A stretch of DNA of 10,124 nt from Bacteroidales bacterium (GTDB taxonomy: Bacteria > Bacteroidota > Bacteroidia > Bacteroidales > F082), in NCBI GenBank assembly GCA_016281295.1, contig JAEEII010000267.1:1-10124 (forward strand), written 5' to 3'. The stretch's first letter is position 1; each line of letters opens with the position of its first letter. The notes under the pieces were generated by a model. It did not search any database and was not told the DNA's origin. It saw nothing but the letters and a program-made list of their open reading frames with translations. The position numbers and the translations under genes are program-made. Shown here one piece after another: positions 209 to 10,009 of this stretch.

Positions 209-826
209 TCAAGCCCAATCAAACTCTATTTCATCACATTTAAGTTCACCATTTCTTTTAAATGGATACCCCACTTCAAATCTCCGATGGACATCAAAAT
301 AGAGTTTTTCAACACCATACTCGTTGGAAGCAAACTCGATGCAGTCAATACCGCCTTCTAACAGAGACTGTCGAATTTTTTCGGGGATACCAAACGTAAA
401 GATTTCCCGCATTAATTCATATTCCTGATAGGTGTCAATAACGCAGAAGGCAGTTCCAGGGGATTTGCCATCGCCTGTGCTCAGCAAGGTGTCAACAATC
501 TGATCTATCCGATTTTGGCAAAGCTCAACTATTACTTCATCATCAATTTTTTCCTCCCAATCGTTGGGAATGTTATCCCCAAAGTCAACAACATCTTCCC
601 AATATTGAATGCTGAAGGGACTTACGTGTCTATTATTAACATAGTCTTCGGTGAACGTATAGCCAAACATAATCCCGCGTAGGGTTTCTATTGGTGTTTC
701 TAGGCCGAGTTTTCCGTCAAGAAATTGTTGAAGCAATTCTTTTGTACAACTATTCTTGTACTCGTCAAAGTCCACTTTGCGGAAAACATCTCGGACTCTT
801 AACTTTTTTTGCGGTACATTTTCCAT
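209..826 (-). CDS. hypothetical acidic 205-aa protein
   Basis: I do not recognise this family. The protein is soluble-looking, acidic, and has no signal peptide or membrane segment. A charged start (QKKLRVRDVFRKVDFDEY) is followed by helical stretches and a middle acidic part (DDEVIVELCQNRIDQIVDTL, about residues 95-115). The C-terminal half alternates short strands and helices (AFCVIDTYQEYELM; GIDCIEFASNEYGVEKLYF). The size and acidity resemble immunity or antitoxin-like proteins, but no motif supports that. The start ATG at 826 is the first in frame and the coding frame is intact. It lies 103 bases downstream of the ADP-ribosylglycohydrolase gene in the same direction, and I see no clear terminator or TAnnTTTG box between them, so co-transcription is possible. 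A run of nine T (minus strand, 167-175) follows the gene without a convincing hairpin. Confidence 0.7.
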   Translation of the reverse strand: MENVPQKKLRVRDVFRKVDFDEYKNSCTKELLQQFLDGKLGLETPIETLRGIMFGYTFTEDYVNNRHVSPFSIQYWEDVVDFGDNIPNDWEEKIDDEVIVELCQNRIDQIVDTLLSTGDGKSPGTAFCVIDTYQEYELMREIFTFGIPEKIRQSLLEGGIDCIEFASNEYGVEKLYFDVHRRFEVGYPFKRNGELKCDEIEFDWA

Positions 827-929: not shown

Positions 930-2171
930 TCATTTTTGATTCATCAAAGCATGTAGTTCACGATTATTATTAATCCTATTCCAGATGTCCTTGTACAGGT
1001 AAACGTTCTCTTTGTCCTTCAGTGGCTCAAAAAGCGGCACCATCACGTCAAGGCCGATTTGGGATTTCTTCCCAAGACCAACATCTTGAACGAGATATAT
1101 TTTGTCAGGGTTCGCCCCTACTTCTGCAATGAGTCTCCTAATGTCTTGCTTTACAGTGTCAATGGATGTCCCGATGGTATGGATGGGAAATCCGGCAAGA
1201 GGCATGCGAGTGAAACGACTTGTCCGAGTTTCAAAATAGCCTCGCTCGCCCTCCGATTCCTCCGCATTAGTGCCATAGACCACCACACAATCGTTACCCC
1301 AGCGTTTTACCATTGGTGGTGTGATACGGAGATTTGGCAGGTTAGCACCATCAAACTCATTAATGACATCTAACATCCGTTTCGGTATATAAATAGAGGC
1401 TTGTTCGGCGATTGTTCTTGGCACGCCATAATAGGCGGCGGCCACACCACCCGCGATGGCAGCGATGGTGTCAGTATCCACGCCTAACTTGACAGCCGAT
1501 TCAATGACCTCGTTGAAATCATTGCCGAACATAAAAGCGCTCATGGCTATGGTGACAGATTCTGGCGCCATCACGTAATCGGACCTTCTATGTCGAGCAG
1601 CAAAAGCATCTGCCGTCTGAAAATTATCATAAACAGGAATACGGAACGTTTTCTCCACGTAGTTCTTGATTTCCAGTTTGGAATTACCTTCTCTGGCGAG
1701 GAAGATGGCTGCAGCCACCGCCCGAGCACTGCGAATCCCATCCCTGCTGTCATGGGTCGGTATTGTAGCCTCCTTGGCCAGCTCAAGCACCTGCTTGAGG
1801 TTCTGGCCATAGAAACCGACGGGACTGATACGCATCGCGCAACCATTGGCGGAACTATGATTCCGGGTTCCTGATGGGGTTTTTATCCACTTGCGGAATC
1901 CCTTTCCGAAACCGGCTGCCGGGTACTGATTTCCCCACGTACGAAAGGCCTGCTCAAAAGACTTGCCATGCAGAAGGGCATCGGCCACCGCGACGGTCAA
2001 CACTGAATCGTCCGTCACGGAGTCGCTGGCACTAAACCACTTTATCCTGCACGGGACCTTCTTAAACTCATACATGCTTCCGATGATATCGCCGACAACA
2101 GCACCGATAACGCCCTTGATGGTGTCATTCGTACTGGAATCGGAGTCGACCACTGCACTCTGACTGTTCAT
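930..2171 (-). CDS. ADP-ribosylglycohydrolase family protein with an extra C-terminal FVFGSN-type domain
   Basis: Residues about 18-270 are an ADP-ribosylglycohydrolase (DraG/ARH fold), a family that removes ADP-ribose from proteins, nucleic acids or small molecules using two metal ions. Visible signatures are GAVVGDIIGSMYEF (23-36), the metal-binding TDDS (53-56), NGCAMR (109-114, the usual GNGAAMR) and VDTDTIAAIAGG (231-242) with metal ligands expected at D232 and D234. The usual GG before DTD is altered to LGV. Residues about 290-400 are a second domain: VVVYGTNAEE (297-306), PLAGFPIHTIG (324-334), YLVQDVGLG (359-367) and NVYLYKDIW (389-397). Its spacing resembles a small Bacteroidota domain starting IFVFGSN and ending in a FLVT.IG.G strand, sometimes fused to ADP-ribosylglycohydrolases; this second match is from memory and is weaker. 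It starts 22 bases after the repeat-protein gene, in an operon-like arrangement. Confidence 0.85.
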   Translation of the reverse strand: MNSQSAVVDSDSSTNDTIKGVIGAVVGDIIGSMYEFKKVPCRIKWFSASDSVTDDSVLTVAVADALLHGKSFEQAFRTWGNQYPAAGFGKGFRKWIKTPSGTRNHSSANGCAMRISPVGFYGQNLKQVLELAKEATIPTHDSRDGIRSARAVAAAIFLAREGNSKLEIKNYVEKTFRIPVYDNFQTADAFAARHRRSDYVMAPESVTIAMSAFMFGNDFNEVIESAVKLGVDTDTIAAIAGGVAAAYYGVPRTIAEQASIYIPKRMLDVINEFDGANLPNLRITPPMVKRWGNDCVVVYGTNAEESEGERGYFETRTSRFTRMPLAGFPIHTIGTSIDTVKQDIRRLIAEVGANPDKIYLVQDVGLGKKSQIGLDVMVPLFEPLKDKENVYLYKDIWNRINNNRELHALMNQK

Positions 2172-3553: not shown

Positions 3554-3582
3554 AAAAAGCAGGGCGGACAAGCCACCCTGCT
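3554..3582 (-). terminator. intrinsic terminator after the radical SAM/Cys-peptide unit
   Basis: On the minus strand AGCAGGGTGG-CTTGT-CCGCCCTGCT forms a 10-bp stem (one G-T pair) with a five-base loop, followed by TTTTTC. It begins 10 bases after the stop of the 34-codon peptide gene and ends 31 bases before the proline-rich peptide ATG. It may end the radical SAM transcript or act as a partial terminator that lowers downstream expression. Confidence 0.85.
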
Positions 3583-3591
3583 TGATTAGAC

Positions 3592-3696
3592 TTAAACTTG
3601 ACGCCACATAACTCCGCAAACTCCTTCTGAAATTTGTGAGCAGTGTCCCATGCAAATCACTTGAGATGTTTTGCTAATTGACAATTCTACTTTCAT
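3592..3696 (-). CDS. 34-aa cysteine-containing peptide, candidate radical-SAM RiPP precursor
   Basis: This short ORF reads ATG (3696) to TAA (3592) and encodes a peptide starting MKVELSISKTSQVI and continuing CMGHCSQISEGVCGVMWRQV. It has three cysteines (C15, C19, C27; spacing Cx3Cx7C) and small residues (G, S) around them. It starts 46 bases after the radical SAM stop and ends 10 bases before a strong intrinsic terminator, which is what a deliberate last gene of that transcript would look like. Radical SAM/SPASM proteins with a PqqD-like leader-binding domain commonly modify a short peptide encoded beside them, often by linking Cys sulfur to another residue. On this view residues 1-14 would be the leader and 15-34 the core; both are inferred. 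The ribosome-binding site is weak (A/T-rich), as is usual in Bacteroidota. A chance ORF cannot be excluded. Confidence 0.6.
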   Translation of the reverse strand: MKVELSISKTSQVICMGHCSQISEGVCGVMWRQV

Positions 3697-3742
3697 TTCG
3701 GTAAAAATTAAACGGTTATAGGTGTACTGCGGGAGACACCAT

Positions 3743-5278
3743 TTATCCCTTTGTATTATACTGGCGTTGAAGCGTCACCTTGGCCTTCGGCAACGCTTGC
3801 AATGCCTTTACAAATTCGTATCCGTGAAGTGGGTCATACCCTTCCATCATCTTGTGCGCCAAATTGAAGCGAATTTTAGCCATGTAGCAGCAGTTCTCGG
3901 CAGGCTTACGCCAGTCGCCGTGCTCCATCTGTCCGTGACCAGCGCAAAGATTGCAGTAGTCGCAATAATCGTGACGCCCGCATTCAGTGAATTGCTGCAA
4001 AGTGTGGTGCTGCCACTGTTGCAACGGCTCATTATCGGCAAACACATCCGACAAGGATTTTTCTTTCAGGTTTCCAAAAGATAACGGAAATGCACAACAA
4101 GGTTGTAAATATCCCTCTGGTGTAATGCAAAAGATGGTTTTACCTGCCCCGCATGCTATATTATTCAGGTCACGGGGATAGCCACCGAAATTTGGAGCCT
4201 CGGGACCAACATAAAGCGGCACATTATCGTCGCGCAACACCACTTGCAACTGTTCTTCGGTGAGGCGCAACTGGCGGGCGCAGGTATCACCCTCATTGGA
4301 ATCGGAAATGTTGATTTCAAACTGCGGCTGCGCACCCAATTTGAACGCCAAATCGGCAACTGTATAATAACTGTGCAGGTTGGGCTGCATCACACAGCAT
4401 TTGATGTTCATCGGTACTGCCAGTTCGGAAAGCCGTCGCACCACCTTCATCGAGCGTTCCCACGAGCCCGGCACCCGCGTGATGGCATCGTGGTCTTCGG
4501 GAACACCGCTGTAAATGCTCACACCCACTATCCGCGGATAATAATCTGCCAACCTTTCCACCTCACTCACAATGCGTTGTCCGTTTGTAAACACATCAAA
4601 CGCAATCTCCTTCTGGAACAGATAGTCAATGATGTCCCACGCGATGGGCTTCGAAAAGGGATCTCCACCAGAGAGGCACACCTTCACCAAACCAGCTTCA
4701 TCAAGTTCGTCAATAATGCGTTTGTAGTCCTCCCATTGCAGCTCCTCACGGTCTCCGCGATGTGAGATTTCGCTGTCGTTGCGCGTAGCACCGGGATTGT
4801 AACAATGGATGCACTTCTCGCTGCAGTTGTAGGTGAGTTCAAACATCACGGAGGTTACAACACCTTGTGCCTCCACCGCGTCGTAGTAGGCCTGTTCGGC
4901 ATTGGAGGTTTCCATAGGCAGTTTCTCATGGGTGGTTTTCTCCACCTGCTGCTCGCGGCATTTCACATCCGCCAACTGATGCCGGTAGCGAAGAATCTCC
5001 TCTTTGGTCGGCACGACAGAAACAAGAAGTCCCAGTTCCACAAACTGCTGGAAGAATGGTTCGATGCTTTCCTCGGCGATACCGGTACTCTGTGCCACTT
5101 CGGCGACTGAAACTTCCTTATTTCGTTTCACATTGAGAATCTGCCCCACTACATCTGCGGAGTAACTTTCAAAAAAGTAGCTGTAGCCGGCGATGAGGTT
5201 GTACATCAGCGCCACGTGTTTGTCGGCGTTATATCTGCCACAGGTCCATTCGGGACGGAAATAGATGTTCTTTGCCAT
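3743..5278 (-). CDS. PqqD-like/radical SAM/SPASM protein, probable peptide maturase
   Basis: Start ATG at 5278 (511 aa) is chosen because AAGGAA lies just before it; the frame stays open to a TTG at 5569, but that codon sits inside the promoter -7 box. Residues 1-86 look like a PqqD-type small domain, which binds precursor leaders (IAGYSYFFESYSADVVGQIL, then AEVAQSTGI and FVELGLL). A charged linker follows. The radical SAM core starts about 140, with the cluster motif CSEKCIHCY (C152, C156, C159), LSGGDPF (202-208) and FTNG (230-233). The C-terminal SPASM domain holds auxiliary Fe-S ligands: C376, C384, C394/C395, C433, C439, C442, C445 and C463/C464, including CDYCNLC. Such proteins cleave S-adenosylmethionine to a 5'-deoxyadenosyl radical and modify peptides. 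A 34-codon Cys peptide lies 46 bases downstream. Substrate and chemistry are inferred. Confidence 0.88.
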   Translation of the reverse strand: MAKNIYFRPEWTCGRYNADKHVALMYNLIAGYSYFFESYSADVVGQILNVKRNKEVSVAEVAQSTGIAEESIEPFFQQFVELGLLVSVVPTKEEILRYRHQLADVKCREQQVEKTTHEKLPMETSNAEQAYYDAVEAQGVVTSVMFELTYNCSEKCIHCYNPGATRNDSEISHRGDREELQWEDYKRIIDELDEAGLVKVCLSGGDPFSKPIAWDIIDYLFQKEIAFDVFTNGQRIVSEVERLADYYPRIVGVSIYSGVPEDHDAITRVPGSWERSMKVVRRLSELAVPMNIKCCVMQPNLHSYYTVADLAFKLGAQPQFEINISDSNEGDTCARQLRLTEEQLQVVLRDDNVPLYVGPEAPNFGGYPRDLNNIACGAGKTIFCITPEGYLQPCCAFPLSFGNLKEKSLSDVFADNEPLQQWQHHTLQQFTECGRHDYCDYCNLCAGHGQMEHGDWRKPAENCCYMAKIRFNLAHKMMEGYDPLHGYEFVKALQALPKAKVTLQRQYNTKG

Positions 5279-5578
5279 CGTTCCTTTTTTTCCGCACCTC
5301 AGGCCCGCAAGGCGCACCACATATAACAAGAAAGTGGAGCCATTCCATTCTCGACTCATCCTAACGTGAGGGCTCGACTCCCTGTCAAATGGATGAGAAG
5401 AGCGAACAACCCCACGTTGAGTATGTCGTATGAAACGAATACCTAACAAGGAGCGCTCATCTTCCCAGTATCCCGATTTGACTTGTGAATTGTCGAGTTT
5501 CACGTTACGGAATAAAGCGAAAACGCGCTTTCTGAATGCTGCGGATTTCTCCCCGCAACACCGCTGCAAAAATACAAA
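5279..5578 (-). promoter_or_regulatory. promoter and ~285-nt leader of the radical SAM gene (copy A)
   Basis: TATTTTTG (5567-5574, minus strand) fits the Bacteroidota -7 box, placing the transcript start near 5560 and leaving a leader of about 280 bases before the ATG at 5278. Within it are two small hairpins: GCGG/CCGC (5541-5544 with 5553-5556) and AAAGCG/CGCTTT (5514-5519 with 5526-5531). Bases 5455-5578 recur almost exactly at 7992-8115. The rest of the leader is more diverged but still alignable to 7805-7991, for example CCATTC.C.ACTCA and TCAAA.GGAT.AGAAGAG on the plus strand. A conserved, structured leader suggests post-transcriptional control; the mechanism is unknown. Confidence 0.65.
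5455..5578 (-). repeat. 124-bp promoter/leader repeat, copy A
   Basis: This is identical to 7992-8115 except at two positions (5489 and 5564), at a constant offset of 2537 bases and in the same orientation. It covers the -7 box and roughly the first 105 bases of the predicted transcript. Confidence 0.95.
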
Positions 5579-7804: not shown

Positions 7805-8115
7805 TTCGTAATTGTTTTGTGTTTAACTTGTTTCGCACCATAAGCCTTTGGGTGCATACTATCACAACAGATAAGCGAGGCTCTCCATTCCCAACTCACC
7901 TAAACCCGAAGACCCGAATCTTCATCAAACGGATAAGAAGAGAAAACAGCCCACACAAACAATCCGAATGTGTAAAACACAAACATGGGATGCTCATCTT
8001 CCCAGTATCCCGATTTGACTTGTGATTTGTCGAGTTTCACGTTACGGAATAAAGCGAAAACGCGCTTTCTGAATGCTGCGGATTTCTCCCCGCAACACCG
8101 TTGCAAAAATACAAA
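7805..8115 (-). promoter_or_regulatory. promoter and ~290-nt leader of the 495-aa gene (copy B)
   Basis: TATTTTTG (8104-8111, minus strand) is the -7 box. The transcript would start near 8097 and run about 290 bases to the ATG at 7804. Apart from the near-identical first part (7992-8115), the leader holds diverged but alignable counterparts of the copy A leader, such as CCATTCCCAACTCA and ACGGATAAGAAGAGAAAACA on the plus strand. No gene is seen in this stretch; the 68-codon frame across it starts inside the promoter and ends before 7804. Confidence 0.65.
7992..8115 (-). repeat. 124-bp promoter/leader repeat, copy B
   Basis: This is the second, same-orientation copy of 5455-5578, with two mismatches (8026 and 8101). 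The two copies bracket the 495-aa and 193-aa genes. Confidence 0.95.
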
Positions 8116-8140
8116 TTTTTTGAAACTATATACTCATTGG

Positions 8141-8174
8141 CAAAAAAAACGCAAGAGTTCCAAAACCCTTGCGT
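8141..8174 (-). terminator. intrinsic terminator upstream of leader copy B
   Basis: On the minus strand ACGCAAG and CTTGCGT pair as a 7-bp stem around a 12-base loop, followed by TTTTTTTTG. It lies about 30 bases upstream of the next -7 box, mirroring the terminator-then-promoter arrangement at copy A. It would end transcription coming from the flavoprotein genes. Confidence 0.75.
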
Positions 8175-8580
8175 AATCTTGATATGGACATGCCGACAGT
8201 CTCCTCTTGGCCTTATGTGGAGGTGCGCACCATTCCGCATGCTCGCTGCGTCCGCAGCGGAATTTCCTACGGAAAATCACGAAAATACGCCAATAGTTAC
8301 AACGAAAAGAGCTTGCGAAACTTGAATCATTTGATTTTTAAATTGGCAATTGAAATTGCCGATTTTCTATCTGCCTATTTGTTTATGCTTTGTAAATCGC
8401 CAATCACGATTGGCTATTTTGATTCATCTGTTATGACCGATGAATCAGGGTCCAACATCGTCCATTCTTCATAAAACAAGCGTTTATTTTTCATGCTTGA
8501 TGTTGAAAATCCCCTTAATTCCAGCAATTCATTTTATCTTGTTATGGGTACAGTTGCTCAATTACCTTCACGGAACACGT
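8175..8580. other. 406-base palindrome-rich intergenic region
   Basis: No convincing gene is present. Visible structures are a perfect palindrome GGTGCGCACC (8222-8231); nested repeats ATTCCGC/GCGGAAT (8232-8238 with 8257-8263) and CGCTGCG/CGCAGCG (8244-8250 with 8253-8259); TTTCC/GGAAA (8264-8275 region); an 11-bp stem AAATTGGCAAT-TGAA-ATTGCCGATTT (8340-8365); GCCAAT-CACG-ATTGGC (8399-8414), flanked by AAAT and ATTT; and GATTCATC/GATGAATC (8421-8428 with 8439-8446). The two GGCAAT-type hairpins have the same design and may act as terminators in either direction, or the region may be a dispersed palindromic repeat. Confidence 0.6.
8414..8494 (-). CDS. doubtful 26-aa acidic peptide ORF
   Basis: The ORF runs from ATG (8494) to TAG (8414). 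It starts MKNKRLFYEEWTML and ends DPDSSVITDESK. AAGGGG lies about 16 bases before the ATG, rather far for a ribosome-binding site. The amino-acid composition looks coding-like. However, the ORF is short, contains the GATTCATC/GATGAATC inverted repeat, and has no partner or promoter that I can identify. It follows the Tat flavoprotein gene by 86 bases. It could equally be chance or a decayed fragment. Confidence 0.2.
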   Translation of the reverse strand: MKNKRLFYEEWTMLDPDSSVITDESK

Positions 8581-9342
8581 TCATTCTTTCGCCTCCGCCA
8601 TCCGCTTGCCCGCGTCGAAGGCCTTCTGCAGGTCCTCTTCCCAATGTTCCTCGCGGTATTTCCGCTTGGCCTCTTCGGAGAAGCCGGCCAGTTCGTAGCG
8701 GTCGTAGTTCTTCACCTGATAGGTGTTGTAAGCAACCAGCCGTTCGGGGTCGCCGAGTGCGGCGGAGATGCAGTGCTCCATCGAGCCGTAGCCCTTGCTG
8801 TTGTTGCGGGCGGGCGCGCCGTTCATGGTCTCCAACAGCACCACGGGCATCTTCTTGGGCGCTGTCATACTGTAGTCGTTGTAGGAGAGCCACGGGAAAG
8901 CCAGCCGCTCCAGGAAGGTGCGCATCTGGCCGGTCACGTCGCCGAAGTAGATCGGGGAGCCGAGCACCAGACCGTCGGCTTCAGCAATCTCCTCCAAAAC
9001 TGGGGTCAAGGCATCCTTGAACTTGCAGATGTTCGAGGCTTTGCCTTTGAGTTTGCAGGCCATGCACGACATACAACCTTTGTAGTCCATGTCGTAGAGG
9101 CGCACCAATTTCACTTCTGCCCCACCCTCTTTGGCACCGTTGGCGAAGGATTCCAGCATGGCGGCGGTGTTCATGTTACGGCACGGACCACCGTCGATAA
9201 CCATTATTTTCTTCATCATATTCGGTGTTTTATTGTTAATCAATTCATTTGCTGTAGCCACAGCGGGATGCTCCAGCAGGCTGGTTGCCGCCACTGCCGC
9301 CACCCCGAGGGCCGCCTTCTTCAAAAATTCACGTCTGTCCAT
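8581..9342 (-). CDS. Tat-exported NAD(P)H-dependent FMN reductase-like flavoprotein
   Basis: The 253-aa protein starts with a twin-arginine signal, DRREFLKKAALG (2-13), then a hydrophobic Ala/Val stretch and AVATA as a possible cleavage site. It is therefore probably exported folded with its flavin bound. The flavodoxin-fold core begins at about residue 43 (MKKIMVIDGGPCRNMNTAAM), where GGPCRNMNT replaces the usual GSPRKNGNT phosphate-binding loop. Then come GCMSCMACK (C90, C93, C96), C106 and GSPIYFGDVTGQMRTFLERL (128-147), which is typical of NADPH-dependent FMN reductase and iron-sulfur flavoprotein families. The Cx2Cx2Cx9C spacing could hold a 4Fe-4S cluster, as in Isf proteins. The methionines at 42-43 mark where cytosolic homologues usually start. 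The lipoprotein flavodoxin gene lies just upstream, suggesting a shared redox role in the cell envelope. Confidence 0.85.
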   Translation of the reverse strand: MDRREFLKKAALGVAAVAATSLLEHPAVATANELINNKTPNMMKKIMVIDGGPCRNMNTAAMLESFANGAKEGGAEVKLVRLYDMDYKGCMSCMACKLKGKASNICKFKDALTPVLEEIAEADGLVLGSPIYFGDVTGQMRTFLERLAFPWLSYNDYSMTAPKKMPVVLLETMNGAPARNNSKGYGSMEHCISAALGDPERLVAYNTYQVKNYDRYELAGFSEEAKRKYREEHWEEDLQKAFDAGKRMAEAKE

Positions 9343-9466
9343 TCGTTGAATAATTTAGGGTGCAACAGGCAGTCTTCATGACAAACTGGTCAATGGCCTG
9401 GTCCTGCATTTCCTTCCCTGCGAGCACGCCAACAATGGCATCGACAGGCTCTGCTACGGAGGGGAT
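9343..9466 (-). other. spacer between the two flavoprotein genes, possible decayed coding fragment
   Basis: After the flavodoxin's TAA the same frame stays open for about 40 codons, reading EPVDAIVGVLAGKEMQDQ and then FVMKTACCTLNYSTN, into the next gene's start region. The composition looks like protein, but it does not resemble the expected flavodoxin C-terminus. It may be the remnant of a lost gene, or chance in GC-rich DNA. Confidence 0.25.
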
Positions 9467-10009
9467 TTAGCGATTCATCAGACGGCTTTCGCCCCATTTG
9501 TACTGCGGGTACGCCTTCTTGAGGTCGTTGGCGGAACCCTCCACGCCGCTGCCACCGCTGGTGGCGAACACGTTGAGCACCTTGCCGCTAAGGTCGTGGG
9601 CTTCGATGAAAGTGTTGACGATGGTGGGAGCAGTGTACCACCACACGGGGAAGCCGATCCACACCGTGTCGTAGTCGGCGATGTTCTCGCATTTGCCCTT
9701 GATGGCGGGACGCGAGCTCTTGTCCTGCATCTCCAGCGTGGAGCGGGACTTCTTGTCGCGCCAGTCAAGGTCGGCGGCGGTGTAAGGTTGTTCAGGGGTA
9801 ATCTCATAAAGGTCGGCGTTGAACTCTTGGGCGAGTTTTTGCGCGGCGGCCTTGGTGGTGCCTGTGGCTGAGAAATAAACGATCAAAGTCTTTTTCATCT
9901 CTTTCTGATTGGTTTGTGAATTCTTTTGGTTTTCAGCACTTTTGGGCGACTGAGCGCACGCGGTCATCATCAGGCAGCACGCAGCGACGATAAAGGTAAT
10001 GTTTTTCAT
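9467..10009 (-). CDS. lipoprotein flavodoxin (Flavodoxin_4-like), short at the C-terminus
   Basis: The 180-aa product opens with a lipoprotein signal: MKNITFIVAACCLMMTAC, with Cys18 as the lipid anchor site, followed by a Ser/Asn/Gln-rich linker (19-37). A flavodoxin domain starts at MKKTLIVYFSATGTTKAAA (38-56), whose SATGTT loop binds FMN phosphate. It continues with YEITPEQPYTAADLDW (68-83), VWIGFPVWWYTAPTI (116-130) and ATSGGSGVEGS (149-159). This is the small flavodoxin family common in gut Bacteroidota, an electron carrier that would act at the periplasmic face of a membrane. The sequence stops at WGESRLMNR, where relatives, as I recall them, carry about 15-20 more residues (a GA..S..E...W helix), so the last helix may be missing. 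It is the first gene after the promoter at 10031-10038. Confidence 0.85.
   Translation of the reverse strand: MKNITFIVAACCLMMTACAQSPKSAENQKNSQTNQKEMKKTLIVYFSATGTTKAAAQKLAQEFNADLYEITPEQPYTAADLDWRDKKSRSTLEMQDKSSRPAIKGKCENIADYDTVWIGFPVWWYTAPTIVNTFIEAHDLSGKVLNVFATSGGSGVEGSANDLKKAYPQYKWGESRLMNR

Follow-up and report, generated by a model that had tools for sequence, protein, structure and literature searches.

What does a 34-codon open reading frame (ORF) encode when it lies directly behind a gene for a radical S-adenosylmethionine (SAM)/SPASM enzyme? The question arises on contig JAEEII010000267.1 of a Bacteroidales bacterium (assembly GCA_016281295.1), of which a stretch of 10,124 nucleotides, here called the window, was analyzed. 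A reading made from the sequence alone had proposed a candidate locus for a ribosomally synthesized and post-translationally modified peptide (RiPP), and all parts that it named were found in place on the minus strand by ORF list and sequence check. The 34-residue peptide is very probably the substrate of the adjoining enzyme. It belongs to a peptide family linked to that enzyme, its gene is preceded by a conserved RNA pseudoknot, and a downstream partner protein has the SelO fold and is tied to the cassette in the genomes searched. The main parts, in order of transcription, are:

5278-3743, minus strand: radical SAM/SPASM enzyme, predicted peptide maturase, 511 aa from its ATG (ORF, Pfam, alignment, structure model)
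3721..3749, minus strand: H-type RNA pseudoknot, 5' leader of the peptide gene (aligned spacers, pair counts)
3696-3592, minus strand: ORF of the 34-aa candidate precursor peptide (short-ORF lists, motif scan, profile searches, selection test)
3583-3557, minus strand: intrinsic terminator 3' of the peptide gene (folding versus shuffles)
3382-2528, minus strand: SelO/YdiU-fold, kinase-like partner, F1, 284 aa (ORF, alignment, fold comparison)

The window peptide, MKVELSISKTSQVICMGHCSQISEGVCGVMWRQV, begins 46 bases past the enzyme stop codon, as first described. It was compared across 40 related loci taken from a contig scan with the enzyme (41 including the window), whose hosts are, by record names, all Bacteroidales or families and genera thereof. 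In 14 of the 40 the record name mentions the rumen, a different gut site or faeces; a further 12 are RUG isolates, which we take to be rumen assemblies. The enzymes nearest that of the window (L001, L002 and L009; 98, 95 and 94% identical) are from Bacteroidales in water-buffalo and sheep rumen assemblies. No viral contig matched the sequence patterns of the enzyme. In one locus, L034, the enzyme gene (7971-9533) has a split frame, by decay or assembly error.

Short ORFs were listed behind each enzyme gene and all frames were scanned for the core motif. An ORF of one family, 33-36 aa long, occupies the same place in 35 of the 40 loci and in the window (36 of 41), and the motif scan gave a single unrelated match, on the minus strand of L034. 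These peptides share the pattern M(K)xxLx(I/V)SxxSxV...C-x7-C-G-(I/V)-x-(Y/W)-R and start 45-67 nt past the enzyme stop in 32 of the 36 (19 nt in L026, 189 in L016, 198 in L030 and 346 in L027). Frames with the leader or core pattern account for 41 of 103 in the 420-nt zone behind the enzyme (counted per ATG, 25-60 aa, 41 loci). Elsewhere in the same loci they account for 6 of 5216, four of which are longer versions of the same ORFs that begin at an ATG before the enzyme's stop and two of which are chance matches.

Thirty-four of the 36 peptides were aligned, leaving out L001, identical to the window, and L023, which has a stop codon. L5, S11, C19, C27 and G28 are invariant, and M1, Y31 and R32 occur in at least 90%. 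At position 31, the window and L003 have Trp and the remaining 32 peptides Tyr; position 32 is Arg in 33 peptides and Gln in L009. The Cx3Cx7C pattern seen initially holds for its second and third cysteines (Cys19 and Cys27, 34 of 34). Its first, Cys15, varies, so we dropped Cx3Cx7C as a functional pattern in favor of the shared Cx7C-G-(I/V)-x-(Y/W)-R. Residues 1 to about 16 would form the leader and about 17-34 the core, with C19-x7-C27-G28-V29-M30-W31-R32.

The frame itself appears to be under selection as protein. Among 29 peptides of exactly 34 codons (406 pairs, with L001 and the window both counted), the pooled ratio of nonsynonymous to synonymous differences (pN/pS) is 0.51 in the proposed frame and 1.02 and 1.18 in the shifted frames, and 35 of the 36 family frames are intact. 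The window peptide matches no NCBIfam model (E up to 1), leader models included, and no Pfam family (E up to 1e-3), in line with the initial impression that it belongs to no named precursor family.

Searches with a peptide profile tie the family to the enzyme. At each of the 23 distinct strong places (E 6.7e-10 or better), the enzyme lies in the surrounding 3.1 kb. Seventeen of these places repeat peptides already represented among the 40 loci; the remaining six (L049, L062, L064, L065, L067 and L068) add new loci. Of the 15 genomes behind the loci, 14 carry one strong copy each, and the other, G012, holds L033 with a divergent ORF. In wider searches, where at most about 20 candidates were scored per genome at family, order and phylum level, the peptide was found in 7 of 399 genomes of one family (two being seeds) and in 3 of 104 genomes of the family of L001 (two being seeds). 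Matches occurred in 6 of 393 genomes of one order, two being seeds and one, G711, marginal (E 8.9e-4) and without the enzyme. Five of 345 genomes matched phylum-wide, one of them the centre of the search itself; the other four matches (E 1.3e-4 to 7.3e-4) lack the enzyme and overlap a DnaK-like ORF in antisense orientation. Eleven of the 25 weak matches listed were examined for the enzyme, and seven weak matches so examined (L055-L060 and L069) are without it. The equivalent position in 36 of 41 loci, the 23 of 23 strong matches beside the enzyme and the in-frame pN/pS of 0.51 support the proposal that the 34-mer is the precursor.

The enzyme is of the kind expected for such a role. It holds CSEKCIHCY and matches the Pfam Radical_SAM (E 4.4e-18) and SPASM (E 8.4e-8) families, which bears out the radical SAM core and Cys-rich SPASM end recognized at the outset. 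In an alignment of 30 of the 41 enzymes, all 30 match PF04055 and PF13186, and the C-terminal cysteines 376, 394, 433, 439, 442, 445 and 464 are invariant. The best matches to the structure model (pLDDT 89) are CteB, SkfB, ChlB, a sulfatase maturase and SuiB. With CteB, SkfB and SuiB the enzyme shares the overall fold, the SAM motif Cx3Cx2C, the Cys-rich SPASM end and an adjoining short precursor, at 14-20% identity in structural alignments. It differs from them in a linker of about 55 residues (85-140) between its N-terminal domain and the radical SAM core, which starts at about 143, and the cassette has another precursor, other partners and Bacteroidales hosts.

The N terminus had been called PqqD-like. 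The window protein has no PqqD match in Pfam; a winged-helix domain of the same kind, resembling PqqD or a RiPP recognition element (RRE), is supported by the structure model at residues 5 to 82 or thereabouts. The model places strands at 12-17, 22-27 and 32-37, a helix at 38-48, a strand at 55-57 and helices at 58-65 and 69-82, and residues 11-100 lie in a block of pLDDT ≥95. The structural alignments with SuiB and SkfB start at residues 6 and 12, respectively. In a set of 20 of the 41 N termini, weak Pfam winged-helix matches were obtained (Rrf2 in 9 and MarR in 4, best E 1.9e-4), and a profile of this region compared with solved structures returned only weak winged-helix and chance rows. 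An RRE is present in SkfB and CteB, according to the accessible part of PMC8326336.

Which bond would the enzyme make? Thioethers, with Cys19 and Cys27 joined to backbone or side-chain carbons as in sactipeptides or ranthipeptides, have a chance that we put somewhat below even. The peptide has two invariant cysteines, the nearest solved enzymes, CteB and SkfB, are thioether formers, and the sactipeptide model AlbA is the fifth NCBIfam match. However, the AlbA score is 84.6 bits against a cut-off of 850 and that of the ranthipeptide model PapB is 43.9 bits against 340; the sactipeptide or ranthipeptide label considered in the sequence-only reading is not established. Ranthipeptide precursors are Cys-rich, whereas only two cysteines are conserved here. 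Moreover, ChlB and SuiB (which form C-C bonds) and PqqE lie within 3 Z units of CteB in the structure comparison, and each of the divergent cores in L008 and L033 contains a single Cys.

The residues beside the second cysteine suggest another chemistry, a C-C bond at residue 31, for example to Arg32 as in the Arg-Tyr RRR peptides. This is possible but leans toward the unlikely. In its favor are the Tyr or Trp at position 31 in all 34 aligned peptides and the near-invariant Arg32, a likeness drawn from the peptides, with the RRR enzyme outside the comparison. Arg-Tyr and Lys-Trp links made by radical SAM enzymes are on record (PMC8326336, in the part accessible). A bond of this type would leave the two invariant cysteines unexplained, and Arg32 is Gln in L009.

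The same end of the peptide recalls mycofactocin, and raises the question of whether the product is a cofactor. The peptide would then be a scaffold, as in mycofactocin or pyrroloquinoline quinone, whose aromatic residue is converted before a peptidase frees a small redox molecule; we regard this as rather unlikely. As described in the accessible part of PMC3023750, the MftA precursor of the MftA/MftC pair ends in an invariant Cys-Gly-Val-Tyr, its gene call was missed, and there is no transporter or immunity gene. Like it, the cassette has one short, originally unannotated precursor with Cys-Gly-(Val/Ile) and a Tyr near the C terminus, one copy per genome (14 genomes) and no transporter family in more than 7 of the 41 loci; mycofactocin is, from what that source gives, the closest precedent for the logic of discovery. 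Among the NCBIfam matches of the enzyme, the mycofactocin maturase model TIGR03962 ranks fourth, and in seven loci the peptide is followed by an M42 aminopeptidase gene. However, the TIGR03962 score of 90.7 bits is far below the curated cut-off of 265, and the PqqE model TIGR02109 scores 67.7 bits against 381.35. The peptide has one more residue before the Tyr or Trp, an Arg after it and further residues beyond (CG(I/V)x(Y/W)(R/Q) and onward), Trp replaces Tyr in the window, and the enzyme has a fused winged-helix domain. Across the 41 loci (ORFs of at least 70 aa), no gene family beyond the enzyme, F1 and two others described below (F2 and F3) is common to more than 7, and thus there is no MftD/E/F-like set and no shared glycosyltransferase or creatininase-type family; no search was aimed at a dependent oxidoreductase.

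Is the precursor gene itself controlled? The aligned spacers before the peptide gene are conserved outside the coding parts, in the form of a pseudoknot with stem S1 GGG(A)/(T)CCC, loop TAAAT and a five-pair stem S2, followed by TATAACC. In the window, S1 pairs 3749-3746 with 3734-3731 and S2 pairs 3740-3736 with 3725-3721; the loop TAAAT (3745-3741) contains the enzyme's stop codon and TATAACC lies at 3720-3714. The pseudoknot occurs in its family form in 38 of 38 loci with the peptide or a divergent peptide, 21-26 nt before the ATG, the scan for this form having added L001, L008, L010, L022 and L038. A pseudoknot can be drawn by eye in L068.

Pairing was counted in an alignment of 38 sequences, 33 from the loci and window and five from loci of the genome searches (left out were the duplicates L001, L022 and L038; L008, missed by the pattern; L010, with another stem length; and L068). 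Paired cells make up 92.1% versus 72.9% in shuffles, 8 of 9 pairs changed on both sides versus 3.1, and cells with such changes number 69 versus 21.7; none of 500 shuffles reached any of the observed values. S2 has compensatory changes in all five pairs, with 99.5% of cells paired and up to five pair types each, and S1 has them in three of four pairs (82.9% paired), the outermost pair failing in 24 of 38. Shifting the partners by 1-3 columns lowers pairing to 41-69%. These controls lean toward structure because the structure was read from the same, related sequences; the variety of S2 pairs would be the stronger point. Plain folding gives no signal (z -0.18), as that method excludes pseudoknots.

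In L016, L027 and L030 the pseudoknot lies 134-289 nt from the enzyme stop and at its usual distance from the peptide, and thus belongs to the leader of the peptide gene. Conservation of the spacer as coding sequence was considered (a 50-codon frame, MWFPKK..., in L016, L018, L022 and L025) and dropped: other loci do not preserve that frame, and where the enzyme stop is 189-346 nt away the element keeps its place beside the peptide. A known riboswitch was rejected on the basis of Rfam 15, which gave no match at gathering score in the window and, in 3560-3900, only a snoRNA at E 7.

A general riboswitch was rejected as well, as a covariance model gave one strong copy, at the cassette, in each of 14 genomes, and one further match at E 0.53. 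This was an S2-only model, with 150 of 177-958 first-look candidates scored per genome; since most strong copies had gone into building the model, what it adds is the lack of a second copy within the 150 scored. In a draw of 251 genomes from a family, made with stricter filters and 25 candidates per genome, five had a pseudoknot match, four of them known peptide bearers and the fifth, G051 (E 0.0015), without the enzyme in its 3 kb. The peptide-bearing genomes G277, G278 and G387 are not among the five and possibly lie outside the 251 drawn. The element likely acts in cis to control translation of the precursor.

A strong terminator had been noted behind the short ORF. Its strength was borne out (an 11-bp stem and T-run, -19.3 kcal/mol, z -4.2, with none of 200 shuffles equally stable), and it begins 8 bases past the peptide stop codon rather than 10. 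Standing behind the peptide in the window, it would yield more peptide than downstream message. A pseudoknot before the ORF, a terminator behind it and a SelO-like gene following in 24 of 41 loci could also describe an attenuator, in which the ORF would serve the downstream gene as a leader peptide or small regulator. We consider this very improbable, since the amino acids are conserved beyond synonymous change, the conserved residues are Cys, Gly and Tyr or Trp near the C terminus rather than a run of a single amino acid, and the peptide is retained in loci that lack the SelO-like gene.

That SelO-like gene, F1, stands directly downstream of the peptide in those 24 loci and, in the genomes searched, did not turn up apart from the cassette. 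The protein has the SelO fold, and K62, R145, N204 and D213 are invariant in all 22 aligned members (of 25; L001, the L018 piece and L034 were left out). By eye, these four residues may fall on the SelO active site; Q203 takes, again by eye, the place of the Asp in the SelO TDN motif. In contrast to the SelO/YdiU AMPylase (478 aa), F1 has 284 aa in the window, where it matches no Pfam family; the 22 members hit 11 families at E up to 1, PF02696 not among them, and the F1 profile gave no match to E. coli SelO. In seven loci (L013-L018 and L022) an M42 aminopeptidase gene takes the usual SelO-like position, and in L018 a 120-aa piece of F1 remains 3.3 kb on. On the enzyme tree, the SelO-like neighbor requires 8 changes (at least 5 forced) and the M42 gene 5 (at least 3 forced), a history that is unsure. 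We know of no other case of a SelO fold in the making of peptide natural products, and to our knowledge neither a SelO-fold partner nor a pseudoknot before the precursor has been known in RiPP biology.

Two other families were not counted as cassette members: F2, a protein kinase near 19 of 41 loci, and F3, without family match and near 15, occur on either strand and side. F2 and the small F3 lie together upstream of the enzyme on the same strand in L011, L015, L017, L018, L022, L026, L027, L028, L031 and L040. The remaining features of the window are:

First in transcription order, before the enzyme, minus strand: 193-aa lipoprotein-like ORF (by eye)
3522-3379, minus strand: 47-aa proline-rich ORF between the peptide and SelO-like genes (ORF list)
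After the 284-aa partner in transcription order, minus strand: gene for a six-fold beta-flower protein (Pfam)
930-2171, minus strand: ADP-ribosylglycohydrolase-like protein, near the cassette (Pfam)
209-826, minus strand: DUF4919 protein, near the cassette (Pfam)

The ADP-ribosylglycohydrolase-like and DUF4919 genes fall outside the set of families common to at least 3 loci. The 47-aa proline-rich ORF has no family match and may not belong to the cassette; by eye, similar ORFs occur in L001 and L009 and a shorter one in L012 (33-47 codons). A 134-nt direct repeat (96% identical) is found at 5445-5578 and 7982-8115, upstream of the enzyme gene and of a 495-aa gene (7804-6317), respectively. It has two copies in L001 and L009, one in L002 and a 69% version in L003, and could be either a shared promoter or leader region or a small mobile repeat.

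Taken as a whole, a RiPP cassette with a pseudoknot-led precursor, a leader-binding enzyme, a linked core and a SelO-fold partner is, in our judgment, a highly probable explanation of the locus. The 34-mer would be translated from a message that carries, 21-26 nt ahead of the start codon, a pseudoknot of its own in the 5' leader. Its N-terminal half (M-K-V-x-L-x-I/V-S-x-x-S-x-V) would be the leader, held by the winged-helix, RRE-like domain so that the core end is placed at the SAM cluster. The SAM and SPASM clusters would oxidize the C-terminal core, the auxiliary clusters taking electrons and perhaps binding a Cys, and one or more intramolecular links would form through Cys19, Cys27 and/or the aromatic residue 31 beside Arg32. 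We infer that the SelO-fold, putatively ATP-binding protein of over half of the loci works on the same peptide or its product, to which it may transfer AMP or phosphate, or is a non-catalytic partner; in seven loci the M42 aminopeptidase gene occupies that position.

Several observations weigh against this explanation. F1 is missing within 1 kb in 17 of 41 loci, and no protease, exporter or transporter family is common to more than 7 of 41. The L023 peptide (9596-9700) has an in-frame stop, by decay or assembly error, and L040 is cut by a contig end at the peptide position. L037 has no recognizable ORF at the equivalent place; its genome carries another cassette (G015:C35) with peptide, pseudoknot, enzyme and partner. 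Same-place ORFs in L008, L033 and L039 (starts at 9586, 9586 and 1291) have a similar leader and a different core. They begin MKIELKVSKISNV, MQKNEVDLRVSQATKV and MKPLFHISLVSRVV, and by analogy with RiPP precursors they could be candidates in which the leader pattern is kept and the core changed. The CGTSYR of L068 shows that position 29 can be other than Ile or Val, and dN/dS spans 0.07-1.23 among the 25 least diverged pairs listed, on short sequences. Scored one at a time, only 17 of the 40 spacers exceeded the top value among 20 shuffles for the pseudoknot, and thus the case for the pseudoknot rests on the family. For the enzyme N terminus, PqqD gave no Pfam match and the profile found no RiPP enzyme among solved structures at E up to 10, and the structure list barely tests residues before 124.

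An intracellular, cofactor- or signal-like product is somewhat more likely than a secreted bacteriocin, because there is one precursor per genome, the core is conserved and no transporter family is widely shared. Like the RiPP clusters mined from Bacteroidales with BAGEL4, the cassette has a radical SAM enzyme beside a short ORF. In the accessible part of PMC10352776, seven of nine such clusters have peptidase-containing transporters, most precursors have GG-type leaders, and class I bacteriocins in Bacteroidales are called elusive. The cassette differs from those clusters in the missing shared transporter family and, for the window peptide, in having no NCBIfam leader match. Rumen genomes have been surveyed by automatic rules (PMC8241843 and PMC13289728), and ranthipeptides are reported in the accessible part of the latter as largely absent from Bacteroidota. 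A literature search for the core form CGIMYR found no paper, and nothing listed by the literature searches describes, by title or abstract, the SelO-fold partner or the pseudoknot; an earlier survey may have listed the enzyme group. Potentially this could be an undescribed RiPP class in which the radical SAM enzyme cross-links a CxxxxxxxCG(I/V)x(Y/W)R core, a SelO-fold enzyme then adds AMP or phosphate, and a product-sensing pseudoknot controls the precursor, a combination that we hold to be distinctly unlikely in full.

In our best reading, the cassette points to an undescribed single-copy RiPP system, radical cross-linked and perhaps further modified by the SelO-like protein. It adds to the rumen and gut Bacteroidales a precursor family that is easily overlooked because its gene has only 34 codons. 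It also offers two unusual and directly testable features that the sequence-only reading had missed, a SelO-fold protein confined to the cassette in the genomes searched and a conserved pseudoknot before the precursor gene. Together with the occurrence as a single copy, the CG(I/V)x(Y/W)R end reopens the question of how many peptide-derived cofactors remain undiscovered.
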